Origin: Nothopassalora personata
Taxonomy: Eukaryota > Ascomycota > Dothideomycetes > Mycosphaerellales > Mycosphaerellaceae
Reading direction: 5' to 3'
Assembly (NCBI GenBank): GCA_033816765.1
Contig: CM066287.1
Location: forward strand, 7,502,001 to 7,566,000
DNA: 64,000 nucleotides
This document shows, piece after piece, positions 1,798 to 12,245 of this stretch; the stretch's first letter is position 1; each line of letters opens with the position of its first letter. The translations under genes were made by a program, and so were the position numbers. The notes beneath the pieces were generated by a model. That model worked only from the letters and a program-made list of their open reading frames with translations. It ran no database searches and was not told the origin of the DNA.

Positions 1798-1959
1798 CAC
1801 CCCCTCTGTTAGGAACCGCTGTACGTTATCACAACTCGGGCTTGGATCTTTGCAGGGATGTCTCAATCAGTTATGAAGGTAGTGGTTCCAAACAGTATAT
1901 GGTGTATACTTAAAATGAGTTGAGCACGAGGCTCCTATCTACTTGCAAAAGAGCGTCGT

Positions 1960-1967
1960 CTATATAG
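1960..1967. promoter_or_regulatory. Palindromic TATA box CTATATAG in the LTR
   Basis: CTATATAG reads the same on both strands. The copy at 4042-4049 in the 5' LTR could drive Gag on the minus strand, and this copy in the 3' LTR could drive the antisense gene on the plus strand. Equivalent copies in element 2 are at 5271-5278 and 7432-7439. The promoter role is inferred from position only. Confidence 0.5.
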
Positions 1968-1993
1968 TGCCGTGTCTTGGCGTGATCTTTCCT

Positions 1994-2048
1994 GCTCTCT
2001 CTGCTCTCTCTGCTCTCTCGAGAGAGCACCCGAGAGCACTGAGAGCAC
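1994..2048. repeat. U3 array of GCTCTC/GAGAGC repeats with central palindrome (type A)
   Basis: Three GCTCTCTCT units converge on a GCTCTCTCGAGAGAGC palindrome, followed by three GAGAGCAC units. Relative to Gag transcription this lies directly upstream of the TATA box, where an enhancer or operator would be expected. The same array is repeated in the right LTR. Confidence 0.7.
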
Positions 2049-2143
2049 TCTGCATATCGGGTGCATCCGCTGGTCTGCTGGCATCGATTGGTTGGCTACG
2101 GGCTTCCCCAGACCGATCCGTAACACCATCCCCCTTCTAGCCT

Positions 2144-2160
2144 AGCTTCGTCCCGAAGCT
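2144..2160 (+). promoter_or_regulatory. 17-nt hairpin upstream of the antisense gene
   Basis: AGCTTCG, loop TCC, CGAAGCT form a perfect 7-bp stem. It lies between the polypurine tract and the antisense start codon, ending 38 nt before the ATG at 2199. Element 2 has the same hairpin at 5465-5481. The Gypsy fossil has a different stem sequence with pairing preserved at 11629-11645. Confidence 0.6.
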
Positions 2161-2198
2161 TACAAGATGTCATTCCTTTCCAACTTTGTCATCCAACG

Positions 2199-2838
2199 AT
2201 GTCTTCTTCTTCCCTTTCCCTTCCCGTCACTAAAACCAGTACGCATCGTCGCAAGAAGCTTGCCAAGTTCATTCGAGAGAACGGGATTACTATGGTCAAG
2301 TCGTGCTCTTTCTGCACTCGTGAGAAAAAGGTGTGCCGTGTCCACATCAAATCGGGCCGCTGTTCGGAGTGCAACGAACACAACATCAAGGGTTGTGACG
2401 TGCGAGTCACTCCTGCTGAGTGGAAGTCCCTTCAGTCCGTACGGGACAAGCTCACCCGTGAGCTTGAAGCGGTCCGTCATGATCTCGTTCGCAAGAGTGA
2501 AGAGATCGCGGCAGCCTATGCGAAGGAGGCGCGTCTTCGTCGTCAGCTTGAGCTGCACGAAAAGCGCGAGGGCGAGGCGATCGCTGTCGAGGAGGCGAGC
2601 ATCCAAGTGTTAGAACAAGGGGAGCTCGAGGCCGCTCCGCCTTCCATCCCGGAAGACTGGTGGTTTCCTGCCTCCGATCCTTCGGTCTTCGACCCTAGCT
2701 TGTCCTTGGATGGGAATCTCCTCCTTCCTGAATCCTTCTCGGAGTTGGTCTCGTCGTAAGTTCGTCCTTTATCTGTTTTCCGTGTCGTAGTGTTGACTTC
2801 TGTGTCCTAGGTCATCAAATCAAGAAGCCGCTGTTTGA
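2199..2838 (+). CDS. Antisense zinc-cluster/coiled-coil protein of element 1 (spliced)
   Basis: Proposed exons are 2199-2755 and 2811-2838 (194 residues), with an intron GTAAGT...TTGACTT...CCTAG at 2756-2810. The N-terminus is basic. Six cysteines follow with spacing C-x2-C-x6-C-x8-C-x2-C-x7-C (CSFC, C, CSEC, C; about residues 36-66), which fits the fungal Zn2Cys6 binuclear cluster rule. A charged heptad-like helix covers about residues 75-130 and the C-terminal third is acidic and hydrophobic. This is the architecture of a small DNA-binding regulator; that role is inferred. The gene runs opposite to Gag and starts 73 nt inside the 3' LTR. The downstream exon adds the tail SSNQEAAV, identical in element 2. 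An upstream ATG at 2167 is in another frame. Confidence 0.75.
2756..2810 (+). other. Predicted intron in antisense gene of element 1
   Basis: Donor GTAAGT, branch-like TTGACTT and acceptor CCTAG give a 55-nt intron of normal fungal size. It splits the codon after two bases. It lies antisense to the element's genomic RNA, so retrotransposition would not remove it. Confidence 0.65.
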
Positions 2839-2863
2839 TGCCTTTATCGTCAGGTCGTTTCTG

Positions 2864-3862
2864 CTAGGCAGATTTCGAGAGAAAGCTCTCGCATTCCTGG
2901 TATGCATTCTCTTCGCGAATCATTGCGTTGAACTCGCGGCTAACTATGTTCTTTTTCTTGCAGTTCCTTGCATAATGGCCTTGCTCGCCACATACGTAGC
3001 AGGTGGAACCTTTGCTCTTCAGCCCCCTTCCTGTCCTACGTTCCGTTACGTCCAATTCCATTGGGTCTCCGTAACCATTAGGGTCCTGACTTCTGGCCTT
3101 GAAGCCCCCTCTTCCGCCCGCGGCGGGTCTCTGGTATCCAGGCTGTACGTGTCGGTCGTACCTCAACTCCTGGAGCCTTTCGTCGATCTCCTTTGCTGCC
3201 TTGATCATCGCCCCTAGCGTAACGACGCTGGCGTTTCGGGATAGTTCGGCTTTGACGTTGTCTTTCAGCCCGAGGTAGAACTGCGATCGCAAAGCTGCGT
3301 CGTTCCATTCCAGGTCGGCGGCATATCCTTGGAATTCTGAGGCGTACAGCGCTACAGAAGTAGTCTGTCGAAGTTGTCGGATATGTCGGTCGGCGTATAC
3401 CTCCTCATTTGGTATCCCGTATAGATCATCGAGTTTCGTCTCAAACTCGTCGTAGTCGTGGAAAATTTTTCGAGTTTCCGTTTTCGGTGTTTCTCCCTCG
3501 CCCTGGTTGTGTAGCCAGTCCTTGAGGTATGGTCGGAATCCTCTAGCTGCTTTTCCTCGTAGGAAGGATGCGGCGTACAAGACCTTGCTGGCCTCGCCTT
3601 GAAACTGGTGTGCGTTGAAGTGAAGGTACAACTGAACCTGCAGTTGAAAAGCCTCCAGTTTGTCCTTGGTCCCGTCGAACGTCTCCGGCGTAGACACCTT
3701 AGGTGCACGGTGGTGGTCCAATGGGTTCAGCATACCCATAGGAGTGTTGTTGTTCTTGCTGCTTCCTGTAATCGACATTTCGCTCATTCGTTCCGTGATG
3801 CCAGTTGACTGTGGCTGTTGTCGTGACGGACTCCGGGTAGCGTCTCTCCCAGACATATGCAA
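2864..3862 (-). CDS. Gag capsid/nucleocapsid protein of element 1
   Basis: A 332-residue intact Gag. A retrotransposon Gag domain spans about residues 50-230 (around ETFDGTKDKLEAF and LYGIPNEEVYADRH), followed by a basic Arg/Gly stretch and one CCHC zinc knuckle, CYVCGEQGHYARNC (C-x2-C-x4-H-x4-C, about residues 288-301). Gag assembles the particle that packages element RNA. The frame ends 28 residues after the knuckle and no pol follows, so the element encodes only its structural protein. The 3' end faces the 3' end of the antisense gene across about 25 bp. It differs from the Gag of element 2 at three residues, all near the C-terminus. Confidence 0.9.
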   Translation of the reverse strand: MHMSGRDATRSPSRQQPQSTGITERMSEMSITGSSKNNNTPMGMLNPLDHHRAPKVSTPETFDGTKDKLEAFQLQVQLYLHFNAHQFQGEASKVLYAASFLRGKAARGFRPYLKDWLHNQGEGETPKTETRKIFHDYDEFETKLDDLYGIPNEEVYADRHIRQLRQTTSVALYASEFQGYAADLEWNDAALRSQFYLGLKDNVKAELSRNASVVTLGAMIKAAKEIDERLQELRYDRHVQPGYQRPAAGGRGGFKARSQDPNGYGDPMELDVTERRTGRGLKSKGSTCYVCGEQGHYARNCKKKNIVSREFNAMIREENAYQECESFLSKSA

Positions 3863-3888
3863 AGGGCCCTGGTGGTGGTGCTCAAAGT

Positions 3889-4207
3889 TGTTAGGAACCG
3901 CTGTACGTTATCACAACTCGGGCTTGGATCTTTGCAGGGATGTCTCAATCAGTTATGAAGGTAGTGGTTCCAAACAGTATATGGTGTATACTTAAAATGA
4001 GTTGAGCACGAGGCTCCTATCTACTTGCAAAAGAGCGTCGTCTATATAGTGCCGTGTCTTGGCGTGATCTTTCCTGCTCTCTCTGCTCTCTCTGCTCTCT
4101 CGAGAGAGCACCCGAGAGCACTGAGAGCACTCTGCATATCGGGTGCATCCGCTGGTCTGCTGGCATCGATTGGTTGGCTACGGGCTTCCCCAGACCGATC
4201 CGTAACA
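3889..4207 (-). repeat. 5' LTR of element 1
   Basis: A 319-bp copy that reads the same as 1807-2125. It is followed by the right target duplication CCCTC. Its TATA palindrome is at 4042-4049. Confidence 0.92.
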
Positions 4208-4212
4208 CCCTC

Positions 4213-5117
4213 ACTCTACATAGGAACTGAGTAGAGTGATCTTAGCGCTAAGGACCTTTATATCCTTTATGACCTTGTTTATATTACCCTTAACTTTATA
4301 GATAAGGTCTTCGATAACTCCCTCCTAACTAGTAATAGTACCCTTTATCTTCTTTTTCGGGGTTTCCTCTTTATTAGTTTCTTCGTCTTAGGGTGCCTCT
4401 CTCTTCTTAGAGGCTATTCCCTTCTTTAGAGTAGACTTAATTATGCTCTATTAAATACCCTAAAGCAGCTTAGTAAGGTTATTAATGTTGTAGGTAGGTA
4501 CATAATCCTTATTTCCTAGAGTGGTACTCTTATACTAATCTAGGGACTGCTTATTAATTTCTACCCTAGAATCGTAACTAAGGTCGCTACGGATGCCTAA
4601 GAATTGCTTAATAAGTCTAAGGATAGGCTTAAAGGCCTTATTTTTCTCTCTAAGGTTGAATTTAGGGAGGCGAGGTTTTCGTCCTTTAGCGAGGGTCCTA
4701 AGTAACCTATAGACGTAGTTTCGGAGTTTGCTCTTCTACTTAGAGTCCTTATGCGCCTTATTCTAAGCCTTTTGCTTCTCCTCTAATACCTCTTTTATAG
4801 GGGTCTTCTTTGCCCCTTACTTCTTTCTTAGGCTACTATACGGCTTAGTGTCGGACTCGTAGCCTATCTCCTAGCTCGCCTTAAGGAGTTGTTAGAATTC
4901 TTTAATAGACATAGAGGACTTGTTTCTAGGGTTTAAGGGTTCTTCTTTAGGTATAGTTAGTAGAGGTAGCGCATTCTTAGGCTCGACTAGACCTAAATTA
5001 AGTAGTGTAGGTGTCTTAACTTCTAAAATAGGCTCTATTTTAAGGGTTCTAATACTTATGTTCTAGTGTTCTAGGATGTAGTCGTACCCTAGTATAGTGG
5101 TTGAAGGGTAACTAACT
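4213..5117 (-). pseudogene. Post-pol open frame of outer Copia, RIP-degraded
   Basis: On the minus strand one frame reads through most of this segment, interrupted mainly by TAG codons expected from CAG after RIP. Readable pieces include SMSIKEF, EIGYESDTKPYSSLRKK and a Lys/Arg-rich stretch ending near NYVYRLLRTLAKGRKPRLP. In element order it lies downstream of RNase H, between pol and the 3' LTR, where simple Copia elements have no gene. I do not recognise the product. The upstream continuation is split by element 2. Confidence 0.45.
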
Positions 5118-5446
5118 TGTTAGGAACCGCTGTACGTTATCCCAACTGGGCTTGGATCTTTGCAGTGATGTCTCTGACTCGTTGAGAAGGTAGTGGTTCC
5201 AAACAGTATATGGTGTATACTTGAAATGAGTTGAGCACGAAGCTCCTATCTACTTGCAAAAGAGCGTCGTCTATATAGTGCCATGTCTTGGCGCGACTTG
5301 ATCAGTCCGATCAGTTGATCTGTCCTGCTCTCTCTGCTCCCTCAGAGATCACCCTAGAGCTCAGAGAGCGATCTCGTCCCATAGGTTTCCTTGCTCTCGT
5401 TTGCCTAACGAGTGGTTGTGGGTTCTCCACGAATCAAACCGTAACA
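5118..5446 (-). repeat. 3' LTR of element 2 (type B throughout)
   Basis: A 329-bp LTR whose left part differs from element 1 (CCCAACTGGGC, CTCTGACTCG) and whose right part carries TGATCA-type repeats. The TATA palindrome is at 5271-5278. Confidence 0.92.
5298..5374. repeat. U3 array of element 2 (TGATCAG plus GCTCTC, type B)
   Basis: TTGATCAG, CGATCAG and TTGATC are spaced closely, followed by GCTCTCTCTGCTCCCTC and GAGAGCGATC. It occupies the same place as the type A array of element 1 but has a different sequence. The same array is in the right LTR. Confidence 0.6.
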
Positions 5447-5464
5447 CCATCCCCCTTCTAGCCT

Positions 5465-5481
5465 AGCTTCGTCCCGAAGCT
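5465..5481 (+). promoter_or_regulatory. 17-nt hairpin upstream of antisense gene, element 2
   Basis: AGCTTCG, TCC, CGAAGCT, identical to element 1, 42 nt before the ATG at 5524. Confidence 0.6.
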
Positions 5482-5523
5482 TATAGGGTCCGGCGTTTTC
5501 TTCGTCAATCCTGTCATGCAACG

Positions 5524-6226
5524 ATGACTTCTCTTTCATCTATCACCATTGGTCCTTCTCAAGCAAAATCAACCCTTCGTCGCAAGCGCCTTGTCGAAGA
5601 TATTGAAGAGAACGGTTACGAAATGGCTCCCTGCTCCTATTGTCGTTCCCTGAAACCTTTGGCTGATGGCAGTCGTCCTGCCTGCATCGTTGGTCCGAGG
5701 TCCTCGAAGTGCTCCGAGTGCGTTAGACACAACCGCAAGACTTGCGACGTTTCTCTGGCCTTCCCCCAATGGGAAAAACTTCGCTCCGTCCGGGAACAGC
5801 TTCGTCGCGACTTGGAATCCTTAGAAGAGGAGGAGATTGAGCTTCTCCAGCGTCTTACTGAGAAGCGCATGAAGAAAGTTCGTGTACGGAAACAGCTTCG
5901 TCTTGCTGAGCGTCGTACCGATGATGCGACCGGGAAGGCCCTCGACGAACTCGAGCTGGACGACCCTCCTGTCGATCTCCCCTTCTCTGTTCCGTCCGGT
6001 GTAGAGGTCCCTGAACCTCCTTTCCCTTTCCATGGCATTCTCGAGATGCCTCCTCAAGACTGGAGTTCTCTGTCGGACGTCCCGCTGGACGATCCCTTGG
6101 ATTTTCTCTTTCCTCCCGTCTTGGCATCTCAATCTTCGTAAGTCGTGTTACCCAGTAGTCATTTGTTCCGTGTCGTTGTGTTGACTTCTTTTCCTTAGGT
6201 CATCAAATCAAGAAGCCGCTGTTTGA
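5524..6226 (+). CDS. Antisense zinc-cluster/coiled-coil protein of element 2 (spliced)
   Basis: Proposed exons are 5524-6137 and 6199-6226 (213 residues), with intron GTAAGT...TTGACTTC...CCTTAG at 6138-6198. It is homologous to the element 1 protein by order of parts and by motifs (SSKCSEC versus SGRCSEC, then TCDV versus GCDV). The six cysteines are spaced C-x2-C-x13-C-x8-C-x2-C-x7-C, so the first loop is longer than the usual Zn2Cys6 spacing. A long Glu/Arg/Leu helix (about residues 85-140) and an acidic, proline-rich C-terminus follow. Exon 2 gives the same tail, SSNQEAAV. A four-codon upstream frame (ATG at 5516) overlaps the start. A regulatory function is inferred; it could also bind element RNA or Gag. 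Confidence 0.75.
6138..6198 (+). other. Predicted intron in antisense gene of element 2
   Basis: A 61-nt intron with GTAAGT donor, TTGACTT branch region and TTAG acceptor. Same position and codon phase as in element 1, although the intron sequences have diverged. Confidence 0.65.
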
Positions 6227-6253
6227 TGCCTTGCTGTCCTCAGGTTGTTTCTG

Positions 6254-7252
6254 CTAGGCAGATTTCGAGAAGAAGTTCTCGCATTCCTGGTATGTATTCT
6301 CTTCGCGAATCATTGCGTTGAACTCGCGGCTAACTATGTTCTTTTTCTTGCAGTTCCTTGCATAATGGCCTTGCTCGCCACATACGTAGCAGGTGGAACC
6401 TTTGCTCTTCAGCCCCCTTCCTGTCCTACGTTCCGTTACGTCCAATTCCATTGGGTCTCCGTAACCATTAGGGTCCTGACTTCTGGCCTTGAAGCCCCCT
6501 CTTCCGCCCGCGGCGGGTCTCTGGTATCCAGGCTGTACGTGTCGGTCGTACCTCAACTCCTGGAGCCTTTCGTCGATCTCCTTTGCTGCCTTGATCATCG
6601 CCCCTAGCGTAACGACGCTGGCGTTTCGGGATAGTTCGGCTTTGACGTTGTCTTTCAGCCCGAGGTAGAACTGCGATCGCAAAGCTGCGTCGTTCCATTC
6701 CAGGTCGGCGGCATATCCTTGGAATTCTGAGGCGTACAGCGCTACAGAAGTAGTCTGTCGAAGTTGTCGGATATGTCGGTCGGCGTATACCTCCTCATTT
6801 GGTATCCCGTATAGATCATCGAGTTTCGTCTCAAACTCGTCGTAGTCGTGGAAAATTTTTCGAGTTTCCGTTTTCGGTGTTTCTCCCTCGCCCTGGTTGT
6901 GTAGCCAGTCCTTGAGGTATGGTCGGAATCCTCTAGCTGCTTTTCCTCGTAGGAAGGATGCGGCGTACAAGACTTTAGAAGCCTCGCCTTGAAACTGGTG
7001 TGCGTTGAAGTGAAGGTACAACTGAACCTGCAGTTGAAAAGCCTCCAGTTTGTCCTTGGTCCCGTCGAACGTCTCCGGCGTAGACACCTTAGGTGCACGG
7101 TGGTGGTCCAATGGGTTCAGCATACCCATAGGAGTGTTGTTGTTCTTGCTGCTTCCTGTAATCGACATTTCGCTCATTCGTTCCGTGATGCCAGTTGACT
7201 GTGGCTGTTGTCGTGACGGACTCCGGGTAGCGTCTCTCCCAGACATATGCAA
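6254..7252 (-). CDS. Gag capsid/nucleocapsid protein of element 2
   Basis: A 332-residue intact Gag with the same domain layout as element 1, including the zinc knuckle CYVCGEQGHYARNC. It differs only near the C-terminus (Ala to Thr, Ser to Asn and Leu to Phe within the last 15 residues). A short synonymous cluster near 6972-6981 (ACTTTAGAAGCC versus ACCTTGCTGGCC) is the other visible difference. There is no pol. The near identity contrasts with the strong divergence of the antisense protein next door and fits a recent sequence exchange with an element 1-type copy. Confidence 0.9.
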   Translation of the reverse strand: MHMSGRDATRSPSRQQPQSTGITERMSEMSITGSSKNNNTPMGMLNPLDHHRAPKVSTPETFDGTKDKLEAFQLQVQLYLHFNAHQFQGEASKVLYAASFLRGKAARGFRPYLKDWLHNQGEGETPKTETRKIFHDYDEFETKLDDLYGIPNEEVYADRHIRQLRQTTSVALYASEFQGYAADLEWNDAALRSQFYLGLKDNVKAELSRNASVVTLGAMIKAAKEIDERLQELRYDRHVQPGYQRPAAGGRGGFKARSQDPNGYGDPMELDVTERRTGRGLKSKGSTCYVCGEQGHYARNCKKKNIVSREFNAMIREENTYQECENFFSKSA

Positions 7253-7278
7253 AGGGCCCTGGTGGTGGTGCTCAAAGT

Positions 7279-7607
7279 TGTTAGGAACCGCTGTACGTTA
7301 TCACAACTCGGGCTTGGATCTTTGCAGGGATGTCTCAATCAGTTATGAAGGTAGTGGTTCCAAACAGTATATGGTGTATACTTAAAATGAGTTGAGCACG
7401 AAGCTCCTATCTACTTGCAAAAGAGCGTCGTCTATATAGTGCCATGTCTTGGCGCGACTTGATCAGTCCGATCAGTTGATCTGTCCTGCTCTCTCTGCTC
7501 CCTCAGAGATCACCCTAGAGCTCAGAGAGCGATCTCGTCCCATAGGTTTCCTTGCTCTCGTTTGCCTAACGAGTGGTTGTGGGTTCTCCACGAATCAAAC
7601 CGTAACA
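7279..7607 (-). repeat. 5' LTR of element 2 (A/B chimera)
   Basis: Positions 7279 to at least 7384 follow the element 1 sequence. From 7402 onward it follows the type B LTR of 5118-5446. The switch therefore lies between 7384 and 7402. Confidence 0.9.
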
Positions 7608-7612
7608 TAACT

Positions 7613-10503: not shown

Positions 10504-10888
10504 TGTTACGGTTCGGTCCAAACGGCAGCCCCGACCAGACACACGAAACACTGATCACTTGGAAACACGTGATACTGATCATCCAGACGCACGTGACACT
10601 GATCACTTCACGGACTGATCAGTGTGATCAGTATGCTCAGTGGGACTGATCAAGGTGATCATACTGAGCCATAGGCTCTACGCCGCGAATCTCCTTTGTA
10701 TTTAGAAACGCTAGAAACCCTTATGGTTCTGATGCGTTCAACTCATGTTACTATCTCACTGATTGGAATACAACTCTTATTCCTATCATTTATCTTCGCT
10801 CAGCTTGCTTCAGCCTCTCCAAAGAATAATACCGCCACGTGACTTGACTTATCTCTTTTGAGACTAGCCCTGGAACGAGACAATAACA
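10504..10888 (+). mobile_element. Solo LTR of the Gypsy family, unmutated
   Basis: A 385-bp LTR in the opposite orientation to its neighbours (TGTTACGG...CAATAACA), flanked by a perfect duplication CTAAG (10499-10503, 10889-10893). Its R-U5 half matches the Gypsy LTRs at 11203 and 24250 (shared motif CGCCACGTGACTT, reversed), but its U3 is different. It has no RIP signature, unlike the Copia sequence around it. A solo LTR forms when the two LTRs of one insertion recombine. Confidence 0.9.
10549..10666. repeat. U3 array of TGATCA palindromes in the solo LTR
   Basis: The motif TGATCA occurs about six times, mostly as CACTGATCAC or ACTGATCAGT, together with two CACGTG boxes. TGATCA-type motifs also occur in the U3 of element 2. 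Confidence 0.75.
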
Positions 10889-11202: not shown

Positions 11203-11610
11203 TGTTATGTCTCGTTCTAGGGCTAGTCTCAAAAGAGAGATAAGTTAAGTCACGTGGCGGTATTATTCTTTAGAGAGGCTAAAGTAAGCTAAGCGAAGAT
11301 GAATAATAGGAATAAGAGTTGTATTCCAATTAGTGAGATAGTAATATAAGTTAAACGTATTAGAACTATAAGGGTTTCTAGCGTTCCTAAATATAAAGGA
11401 GATAGAGCGTTTGCTCTCCGTACTCTCTATGCTCTCTATACTCTCTCGAGATTACCGAGATTAACGAGATTAAGGAGATTACTTTAGTTGCTCTCTCGGT
11501 TCCTTAGTTTTATTCCTACGGGTAAGAGAGCACTTCTCGGGCGGAAGCGTCTACTAATTGTAGAGGTCTAATTAGTTAGCTTCCTTCAGCCCTAGATTAG
11601 AACCGTAACA
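11203..11610 (-). repeat. 3' LTR of Gypsy element
   Basis: A 408-bp LTR, TGTTATGTCTCG...CCGTAACA. The left about 205 bp (R-U5) match 24250-24455; the U3 differs. Confidence 0.85.
11413..11480. repeat. U3 array of the Gypsy 3' LTR (CTCTCTAT and CGAGATTA units)
   Basis: Tandem TACTCTCTA/TGCTCTCTA units are followed by CGAGATTAC, CGAGATTAA, CGAGATTAA and GGAGATTA. This is a different array from that in the 5' LTR of the same element. Confidence 0.65.
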
Positions 11611-11628
11611 CTATCCCCCTTTTAGCCT

Positions 11629-11645
11629 AGCTCTATCCTAGAGCT
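11629..11645 (+). promoter_or_regulatory. 17-nt hairpin upstream of antisense fossil, with compensatory changes
   Basis: AGCTCTA, TCC, TAGAGCT: the same loop and stem length as in elements 1 and 2, but three stem bases differ on each side with pairing kept. Ends 40 nt before the ATG at 11686. Confidence 0.55.
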
Positions 11646-11685
11646 TTATAAGTTATGTTGTACTTCCTTTTCGTGTCTCGTAACG

Positions 11686-12245
11686 ATGTCTTCTTCCTCC
11701 TAATCTAAATCTACCGCTCGCCGTAAGAAGAAGGCCTAGTAGATCTTTCGTGACGGCGATACCGCGATGCGTCCGTGTGATTCTTGTTAAAAGGAGGGCC
11801 GTATATGCAAGGTGCACATCTTATCTAGTCGCTGTTCCGAGTGCTAGCAGCGGAATCTAAAGAGTTGTAATACGAGGGTAACCGAGGGCGAGTAGAAGCG
11901 CTTATCGCTTTAGCGGAAGAAATTGTTATAGGAACTAGATACCGCGAAGAGGATTCTTAGTAAAAGGCAGGATGCCTTAATAGAAGCGTATATAAAGGAA
12001 ATGCGCCTTCGTAAGCAATTGGATACGGTTAATTAGAAGGTTACGGAGGGTCGTTCGTTAGAAGATCGGTTATTACTAGACGAGGATCTAGGGGCGTAGG
12101 AGTACGCTGTAGTAGACGCGGATCCTAGTGCTCCTAATCTGTCCTTATCTCCTTAGACCTAGAGTGCTATCGAAGGTCTTCCGGACGACTTCTAGCTTTC
12201 TCCTTCTAGCGAGACGGTACCGTCGGTAGCTTAGCCGTCTCCTTT
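11686..12245 (+). pseudogene. RIP-killed antisense zinc-cluster gene of the Gypsy element
   Basis: The plus strand keeps one frame for 560 nt with no frameshift. It is interrupted by about 14 TAG/TAA codons, each explicable as CAG or CAA changed by C-to-T. The order matches elements 1 and 2: basic start (ARRKKKA), cysteines C-x2-C-x6-C-x8-C-x2-C-x7-C (CDSC, C, CSEC, C), a heptad-like helix (KEMRLRKQLDT) and an acidic tail. It ends at GTAAGG (12246), a donor at the same codon phase as the introns of elements 1 and 2. CTAG at 12292-12295 could be the acceptor. Confidence 0.75.

Follow-up and report, generated by a model that had tools for sequence, protein, structure and literature searches.

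An antisense gene for a putative zinc-cluster protein, carried as a cassette with U3 by Gag-only and autonomous LTR retrotransposons of Nothopassalora personata

The stretch of Nothopassalora personata DNA analysed here (64,000 nt, referred to as the window; assembly GCA_033816765.1, contig CM066287.1, positions 7,502,001 to 7,566,000) contains two long terminal repeat (LTR) retrotransposons that raise the same question: why should an element with Gag as its product on one strand keep a second gene on the other strand, just inside the 3' LTR? This layout had been proposed in a sequence-only reading of the window, and the LTRs, target duplications and open reading frames (ORFs) on which it depends were read in both elements. 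We report the anatomy of the elements, coding selection, cysteine conservation and a splice-compatible frame in the antisense gene, its cassettes, the repeats in U3 and an association between protein and U3, all of which were observed. Our preferred answer, to which we give a probability of about one in two, is that the antisense product is a Zn2Cys6-type factor that binds the array of sites in its own U3 and drives transcription in both directions.

Constant bodies and variable cassettes

The LTRs of elements 1 and 2 end in TG..CA. Those of element 1 are 319 nt each and identical; those of element 2 are 329 nt each and 97% identical. The target duplications (5 bp, CCCTC, at 1802-1806 and 4208-4212 for element 1; TAACT at 5113-5117 and 7608-7612 for element 2) and the polypurine tract had also been reported earlier, and all were read directly. 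Both gag ORFs match Retrotrans_gag and zf-CCHC, and the Gag regions of the two elements are 99.1% identical in DNA. No pol-sized ORF is present between the LTRs of element 1 or element 2 in the ORF list. With an LTR pair, gag and no pol, both fit the definition of a Gag-only non-autonomous LTR element, which we take to be the TR-GAG type. The antisense ORF starts 73 nt from the 3' LTR in element 1 and 77 nt from it in element 2.

We compared the two elements in 50-nt steps. Identity was 90-100% over the TATA region, R-U5 and gag, dropped to 20-62% from about position 2800 down across the antisense gene, was 82% in the spacer by the polypurine tract and 36-82% in U3, and returned to 98% at about 1965. 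For comparison across the genome, 29 cassettes were reduced to 21 families (seven autonomous and 14 Gag-only) by leaving out the near-copies L032, L040, L054, L056, L058, L059, L061 and L064 (L-numbers denote regions fetched from the genome). The pairs L052/L053 (proteins 96% identical) and L057/L065 (85%) were kept despite their closeness, and the Gag-only class of L060 and L065 was checked (Gag-only gag at 95.6-95.7%, no pol beside the antisense gene). In five Gag-only families the gag DNA was 98.5-99.4% identical in 10 of 10 pairs, with a synonymous divergence (dS) of 0.005-0.033, and the antisense proteins were 22.8-36.5% identical in nine pairs and 62% identical in the tenth. Four autonomous families gave the corresponding picture, with pol at 96.6-97.4% in six pairs and antisense proteins at 30-47%; pol of the other three autonomous families was at 79-88%.

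Because the bodies are near-identical and the cassettes strongly divergent, the cassettes are older than the bodies that carry them. Gene, spacer and U3 lie next to each other and so pass on together as a single cassette. The constant body with a divergent antisense protein and U3 is new here. Elements whose Gag or Gag-Pol is almost identical would have swapped cassettes, with template switching in the course of reverse transcription as the probable route.

The genome searched comprises 54.5 Mb in 40 contigs. A search with antisense protein 1 as the query scored 150 of 781 candidates and listed every one of the 150 as a match. Among them, 32 are ORF 1 copies whose protein is 99-100% identical, five of these with one TAG; the remaining scored matches belong to other families, 34-46% identical to antisense protein 1, many of them intact and many decayed. 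Further antisense queries added more families. The TAG and TAA stops in the decayed copies are of the kind that repeat-induced point mutation would leave. One such decayed copy lies in the window itself (11701-12093, seven TAG and two TAA stops), as does a spacer-like stretch at 11590-11647 with a 69% match to the element 1 spacer. An LTR pair was found at 28 of 30 ORF-1 loci fetched, and a matching 5-bp duplication at 26 of those 28. The LTRs were identical in 22 of the 28 element-1-type pairs, so insertion of this type has been recent. Gag lay on the opposite strand directly 3' of the antisense gene in 43 of 46 ORF-1- and ORF-2-type copies, drawn from the 150 scored and checked against 51 of 121 gag matches (121 of 1050 gag candidates were scored). 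Three copies are without a gag partner: L009 has only 154 nt of gag, L030 is at a contig end with a partial gag, and C5:2050455 has no gag match among the 121 scored.

The antisense gene was present in 17 of 20 fetched regions, full gag-pol elements included, and 14 of the 17 show the cysteine pattern described below. L038 keeps this pattern and has an in-frame stop upstream. In every match of the L050 type a TAG stands close to where the homologous stretch ends, L040 is a frame-altered variant with a changed N-terminus, and the genes of L035 and L049 contain an in-frame stop. A scripted scan found no antisense ORF in L043, L047 and L048, which belong to other lineages (L043 also has a chromodomain pol). 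The pol of L036 and L031, the two scanned of the group, contains reverse transcriptase, RNase H, integrase and a chromodomain, as in chromovirus-type Ty3/gypsy elements. Given its occurrence in autonomous and Gag-only elements, the antisense gene is a standard component of one Ty3/gypsy chromodomain group and its Gag-only companions. The sequence-only reading had suggested checking whether homologues elsewhere also sit inside LTR elements; in this genome they do, beside gag or beside pol.

Homologues were also found among 112 database proteins. With the copies of the window itself set aside, the search by the element-2-type profile listed 100 proteins, and two other searches listed 8 and 9. 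Those with names come from Cladosporium, Cryoendolithus, Friedmanniomyces, Elasticomyces, Ramularia, Zopfia and a Xanthoria metagenome-assembled genome. Friedmanniomyces and Zopfia are Dothideomycetes, and the Zopfia homologue is labelled Zn(2)-C6 fungal-type by UniRef.

Selection, splicing and class of the antisense protein

To estimate selection on the frame, the ratio of nonsynonymous to synonymous divergence (dN/dS) was calculated for 16 family pairs; 10 gave finite values (0.05-0.39) and six were saturated at synonymous sites. The unsaturated pairs L052/L053 and L057/L065 gave dN/dS of 0.05 (dS 0.43) and 0.10 (dS 0.80), respectively, and the antisense gene of element 2 gave 0.12-0.16 at dS 2.0-2.8. 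Purifying selection, the absence of which would have told against the earlier proposal, was therefore found, and the low dN/dS indicates that the antisense protein itself is preserved. All six cysteines were kept in 75 of 79 aligned antisense proteins.

The frame is also compatible with splicing. In element 1 the stop codon of the unspliced antisense ORF falls within the donor GTAAGT, and the predicted intron, with a phase-2 donor, the same exon 2 and the end SNQEAAV, was present in 14 of 19 Gag-only loci examined (11 families). L052 and L053 are without the intron and their frame runs directly to HQESAV, which looks like the same C-terminus following exact intron loss; L054 and L055 have no proper donor, and the L064 stretch stops ahead of the acceptor. 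The likeness of exon 2 between families is not independent because exon 2 lies in the shared body; the donor and phase are independent. The same intron was not found in autonomous elements in a by-eye look. The predicted intron supports antisense transcription, which is itself presumed.

These results bear on two explanations that would dispense with the protein. Very probably the antisense RNA is not the active agent, by forming double-stranded RNA or by interfering with sense transcription: such roles of antisense transcripts are discussed for plant elements in the available text of a review (PMC7264820), whereas the dN/dS of 0.05 and 0.10, the six cysteines in 75 of 79 proteins and the maintained splice phase point to selection on a protein. 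We find it scarcely credible that the frame arose by chance, or that it is a host gene which was captured and does nothing for the element. Its relatives have no known function and the fold match is weak, but the gene is found in autonomous and Gag-only families and in 112 database proteins, it is under selection, and it stands beside gag in 43 of 46 copies.

Zn2Cys6 domains (PF00172) have the cysteine spacing C-x2-C-x6-C-x5-12-C-x2-C-x6-8-C and fold as two short helix motifs around two zinc ions. ORF 1, read from its sequence as C-x2-C-x6-C-x8-C-x2-C-x7-C, and its nearer relatives fit this spacing. The element 2 type falls outside it, with x13 between cysteines two and three in ORF 2 and x11 to x13 in its relatives. 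The predicted models contain a long helix in each protein and, in ORF 1, a short helix after each CxxC. Profile matches of the antisense proteins were to LEU3, LAC9 and GAL4; the top two Foldseek matches of the predicted model were Pho7, and a second structural look gave HAP1, PUT3, LEU3, LAC9 and Pho7. Against Zn_clus, L060 scored 21 bits at the cut-off of 21 (E 0.00036), ORF 1 and ORF 2 scored 10.4 and 9.1 bits, both below that Pfam cut-off, and three of 27 antisense family members reached E 0.1 or better. The evidence for a Zn2Cys6 label in ORF 1 and several families, from sequence and predicted models, is thus mostly weak but convergent. Matches to coiled-coil families were taken as low-complexity matches.

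The last 55 residues include 11 acidic residues in ORF 1 and nine in ORF 2, with no basic residue in either; this segment is net acidic in 21 of 21 families and contains tryptophan in 20. The heptad helix and acidic C-terminus described earlier are in agreement with the long helix of both models and these tails.

U3 repeats and the action of the antisense protein

The U3 sequence upstream of the TATA box was compared with 200 dinucleotide shuffles in each family. By repeat index, 18 of 21 families exceeded the shuffles (p < 0.05); by how often the commonest 6-mer occurs, 16 of 21 did. In element 1 the index was above all 200 shuffles; its array of GAGAGC words recurs in the 5' LTR at 4076-4128. 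Other families have other words: L062 has CGAGCA 18 times at 8-nt steps, L065 has CTGATC and CTGAGC eight times each, and L045 repeats GCGAC. None of four R-U5 stretches was repeat-rich.

We then asked whether similar antisense proteins stand next to similar U3 sequences on different bodies, by comparing antisense protein similarity with U3 6-mer similarity over 98 autonomous x Gag-only pairs (part of the tests used L055 and L063 with their read-through ends removed). The protein correlated with U3 words at r = 0.25 (p = 0.015, 0.011 and 0.012 in separate runs), and the association stayed at p = 0.018 without L053 and L057, leaving one per close pair, and at p = 0.025 without L060 and L065. 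The correlation of the protein with the spacer was r = 0.47 (p = 0.0003). No correlation was seen with the R-U5 control over the 98 pairs (r = 0.05, p = 0.32). The clearest single case of a protein-U3 match is that of L044 and L051, which sit on different bodies and are each other's best antisense relative: CGACC occurs seven times in the L044 U3, five times in the L051 U3 and at most once in each of the other 19 families, and the two U3s are alignable over only 16 nt.

We consider it likely that the antisense protein binds its own U3, whichever the sign of the effect. In the preferred model the gene product would be a small transcription factor of Zn2Cys6 type, with a coiled coil and an acidic tail that bears tryptophan. 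Its target would be the array of short repeats in U3 of the LTR belonging to the same element, and this array would act as an upstream activating site common to the two divergent starts that flank it. One is the TATA box, for the gag or gag-pol RNA; the other would lie near the polypurine tract, and from it a spliced antisense mRNA would be made out of the 3' LTR. Activation in both directions would create a self-reinforcing circuit in each family.

The main rival, which we regard as unlikely, is that the protein is a repressor that acts on its own U3 and sets copy number in the manner of immunity, so that elements with differing cassettes escape mutual repression and share Gag and Pol. Cassette exchange and U3 repeats fit a repressor-operator pair, heteroimmunity would suit many families living side by side on one body, and HBZ of human T-cell leukemia virus type 1 (HTLV-1) counteracts sense transcription. 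However, the acidic tail with tryptophan and phenylalanine and the recurrent SPxTW...FW motif resemble, by eye, an activation domain, and the element-1 type has multiplied, with identical LTRs in 22 of 28 pairs. It also seems rather improbable that a nuclear DNA or chromatin protein serves some step other than element transcription, such as guiding integration or tethering a complementary DNA (cDNA) complex. A putative DNA-binding domain and a coiled coil would suit such a protein, and nuclear roles have been proposed for the antisense proteins of plant elements, according to the part of PMC7264820 available. Yet this leaves the repeat-rich U3, varying with the protein, unexplained, and the scanned autonomous pols (L036 and L031) have their own integrase and chromodomain.

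Several results weigh against an activator of Zn2Cys6 type acting on its own U3. As to protein class, the matches except that of L060 are weak (best profile E 0.014, Foldseek E 0.46), and a coiled-coil match (E 0.004) outranks the best Zn2Cys6 profile match. Neither Foldseek nor the second structural look listed a Zn2Cys6 chain for the ORF 2 model. A profile of the 79-sequence alignment matched helical proteins only in the PDB, with no Zn2Cys6 confirmation for ORF 2, and the aligned sequences themselves match DUF3716 of Pfam (25 of 79) and Zn_clus (19 of 79), both weakly. The Zn2Cys6-like cluster that the sequence-only reading saw in both elements can thus be upheld for ORF 1 and several families, by spacing and convergent matches, and found no fold or profile confirmation in ORF 2. 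As to selection, the single finite dN/dS for the element 1 antisense gene is 0.39 (vs. L036, dS 1.7).

The same holds for part of the U3 data. The repeat index was non-significant in L041, L042 and L051, and the commonest word in these three, L046 and element 2; of the two window elements, element 2 has the weaker repeats, with p = 0.02 for the repeat index and p = 0.28 for the commonest word. Long internal duplications inflate the repeat values of L031 and L045, and one of two LTRs without an antisense gene is repeat-rich (L047, p = 0.007). The U3 association is modest: when all pairs were used and close relatives removed, it came to r = 0.15 (p = 0.0497), and the zinc cluster taken by itself gave p = 0.11. 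A one-to-one rule, nearest protein equals nearest U3, was rejected, since only one autonomous family of the seven obeys it. Being adjacent would by itself keep gene and U3 together in inheritance and give some correlation.

A stronger form of the preferred model, which we offer tentatively and by analogy, is that the cassettes are exclusive as well as exchangeable: each protein would read only its own U3 and drive a divergent, self-sustaining promoter, and more than 20 families would thereby be transcriptionally separate although they use common machinery. Lambdoid phage immunity regions offer the likeness, as exchangeable regulator-plus-operator cassettes on a shared body.

Further features and known relatives

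Coordinates of the features of both elements are given in Table 1.

Table 1. Positions of LTRs, genes and predicted signals of elements 1 and 2 in the window.
Feature	Position	Strand	Remarks
Element 1, Gag-only LTR element	1807..4207	-	LTR pair and duplication read
Element 1 3' LTR	1807..2125	-	TATATA at 1961-1966; U3 from TATATA to 2125
Element 1 U3 array	1994..2046	-	six GAGAGC, three per orientation in opposed blocks, 9-10 nt apart
Element 1 polypurine tract	2126..2137	-	sense GAAGGGGGATGG; read directly, adjoins 3' LTR
Element 1 spacer hairpin	2144..2160	+	7-bp stem, loop TCC
Antisense gene 1 exon 1	2199..2755	+	unspliced ORF 2199-2759, 186 aa; six-cysteine cluster, coiled coil, acidic tail
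Antisense gene 1 predicted intron	2756..2810	+	55 nt, GTAAGT...TTGAC...TAG
Antisense gene 1 predicted exon 2	2811..2838	+	ends SSNQEAAV then stop
Element 1 Gag	2864..3856	-	330 aa from ATG at 3856; ORF 2864-3862
Element 1 primer-binding region core	3878..3885	-	complementary to GTGCTCAA of LTR
Element 1 5' LTR	3889..4207	-	
Element 2, Gag-only LTR element	5118..7607	-	LTR pair and duplication read
Element 2 3' LTR	5118..5446	-	TATATA at 5272-5277; U3 from TATATA to 5446
Element 2 polypurine tract	5447..5458	-	
Element 2 spacer hairpin	5465..5481	+	
Antisense gene 2 exon 1	5524..6137	+	unspliced ORF 5524-6141, 205 aa; cluster with enlarged loop
Antisense gene 2 predicted intron	6138..6198	+	61 nt
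Antisense gene 2 predicted exon 2	6199..6226	+	ends SSNQEAAV then stop
Element 2 Gag	6254..7246	-	330 aa from ATG at 7246; ORF 6254-7252
Element 2 5' LTR	7279..7607	-	

The spacer hairpin adjoining the polypurine tract had 97% of its stem positions paired in 15 families, a figure biased upward because the arms were chosen for maximal pairing, and 52% with arms mixed across families. The primer-binding region is without a TGG start in the window (3878-3885), L040, L044, L045 and L046. In eight of nine elements of the group its complement, 8-9 nt long, is present in the LTR of the same element, at a site 36-41 nt past the TATA box that reads GTGCTCAA in Gag-only and GCGTTCAA in autonomous bodies. 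This complementarity suggests Tf1-like self-priming. The longest primer-region match of L050 lies elsewhere, and L043 and L047 also show 9- and 10-nt matches.

Immediately downstream of the antisense gene, and on the same strand as that gene, ARAGORN detected a sequence resembling a transfer RNA (tRNA) with the anticodon CUA in five of 11 regions scanned, all autonomous (L032 3551-3628; L036 5647-5724; L040 6204-6281; L044 2120-2194; L050 1846-1920); its internal promoter boxes look intact. Amber suppression of the gag-pol stop by this sequence was considered and dropped because pol is in another frame than gag and the stop varies (TAG, TGA or TAA) in the junctions printed. L042 is a head-to-tail array of Gag-only elements with a period of 2056 on contig C12. 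Elsewhere in the window, 10689-10859 and 11233-11403 form an inverted repeat of 171 nt, 90% complementary, with the arms 373 nt apart.

Among host proteins, the Zn2Cys6 factors LEU3, LAC9, GAL4, HAP1, PUT3 and Pho7 share the cysteine spacing of ORF 1 and a coiled coil behind the cluster; they differ in being host genes, and the element 2 type departs from them by the 13 residues that separate its second and third cysteines. Many host Zn2Cys6 factors have a large middle region, whereas the antisense proteins are short and without it. HTLV-1 HBZ, a comparable case, is an antisense gene product from a 3' LTR and a nuclear regulator with a coiled-coil domain, but it is a leucine-zipper protein of a retrovirus, and homology is not implied. 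In the parts of the literature available, HBZ is mentioned in PMC11963269 and the HTLV antisense promoter in the 3' LTR in PMC7264820.

The closest precedent overturns one claim of the sequence-only reading, that no such fungal retroelement system had been described. An antisense gene, brtn, was reported previously in Boty-like elements of Botrytis cinerea (Zhao et al., 2011, PMID 21802103, as cited in the available text of PMC7264820, PMC8365987 and PMC4227169, and also in PMC5987419). In Boty-like Ty3/gypsy elements of Botrytis and Sclerotinia, brtn is an extra antisense gene between pol and the 3' LTR (PMC7264820, available part), and the elements here fit this placement, with an antisense ORF between pol or gag and the 3' LTR. 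Boty-like elements also have a chromodomain in pol (PMC4227169, in the text available), as do the autonomous relatives here. The available portions of the cited accounts make no mention of a cysteine cluster, intron, U3 repeats or cassette exchange, and among the database matches listed, most of them unnamed, none was named Botrytis or BRTN. Beyond brtn, no fungal antisense gene in an LTR element appeared among the open-access literature matches listed, as far as their text was available, nor did a zinc-cluster assignment, protein-matched U3 sites or cassette exchange for such a gene.

Two further systems share parts of the pattern. Antisense TRP28 ORFs of plant Retand elements lie between pol and the 3' LTR with predicted DNA binding; a regulatory role is proposed, and there are some non-autonomous elements and family-specific tandem repeats. 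They differ in the TRP28 domain and in having the repeats in the internal region rather than in U3 (PMC11963269, available part). In crapaud of Podospora, half of the LTR is hypervariable with R and U5 conserved, and template switching was proposed, but the element is drawn with gag and pol ORFs only and the word "antisense" is absent from the available text (PMC10787394). A 2020 review of plant elements, as far as its text is available, gave the function of antisense genes as unknown and described no clear similarity to other proteins (PMC7264820).

With a likely protein class, a likely target in the neighbouring U3 repeats and a test by cassette exchange, the function of the antisense gene becomes directly testable. 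If the preferred model is true, LTR retrotransposons can supply a transcription factor of their own together with the promoter that matches it. The coexistence and separate bursts of many families would then be easier to explain, and the U3 arrays and their proteins would make up a natural collection of matched protein-DNA specificities. Each family may run a private genetic switch by means of its regulator-promoter cassette.

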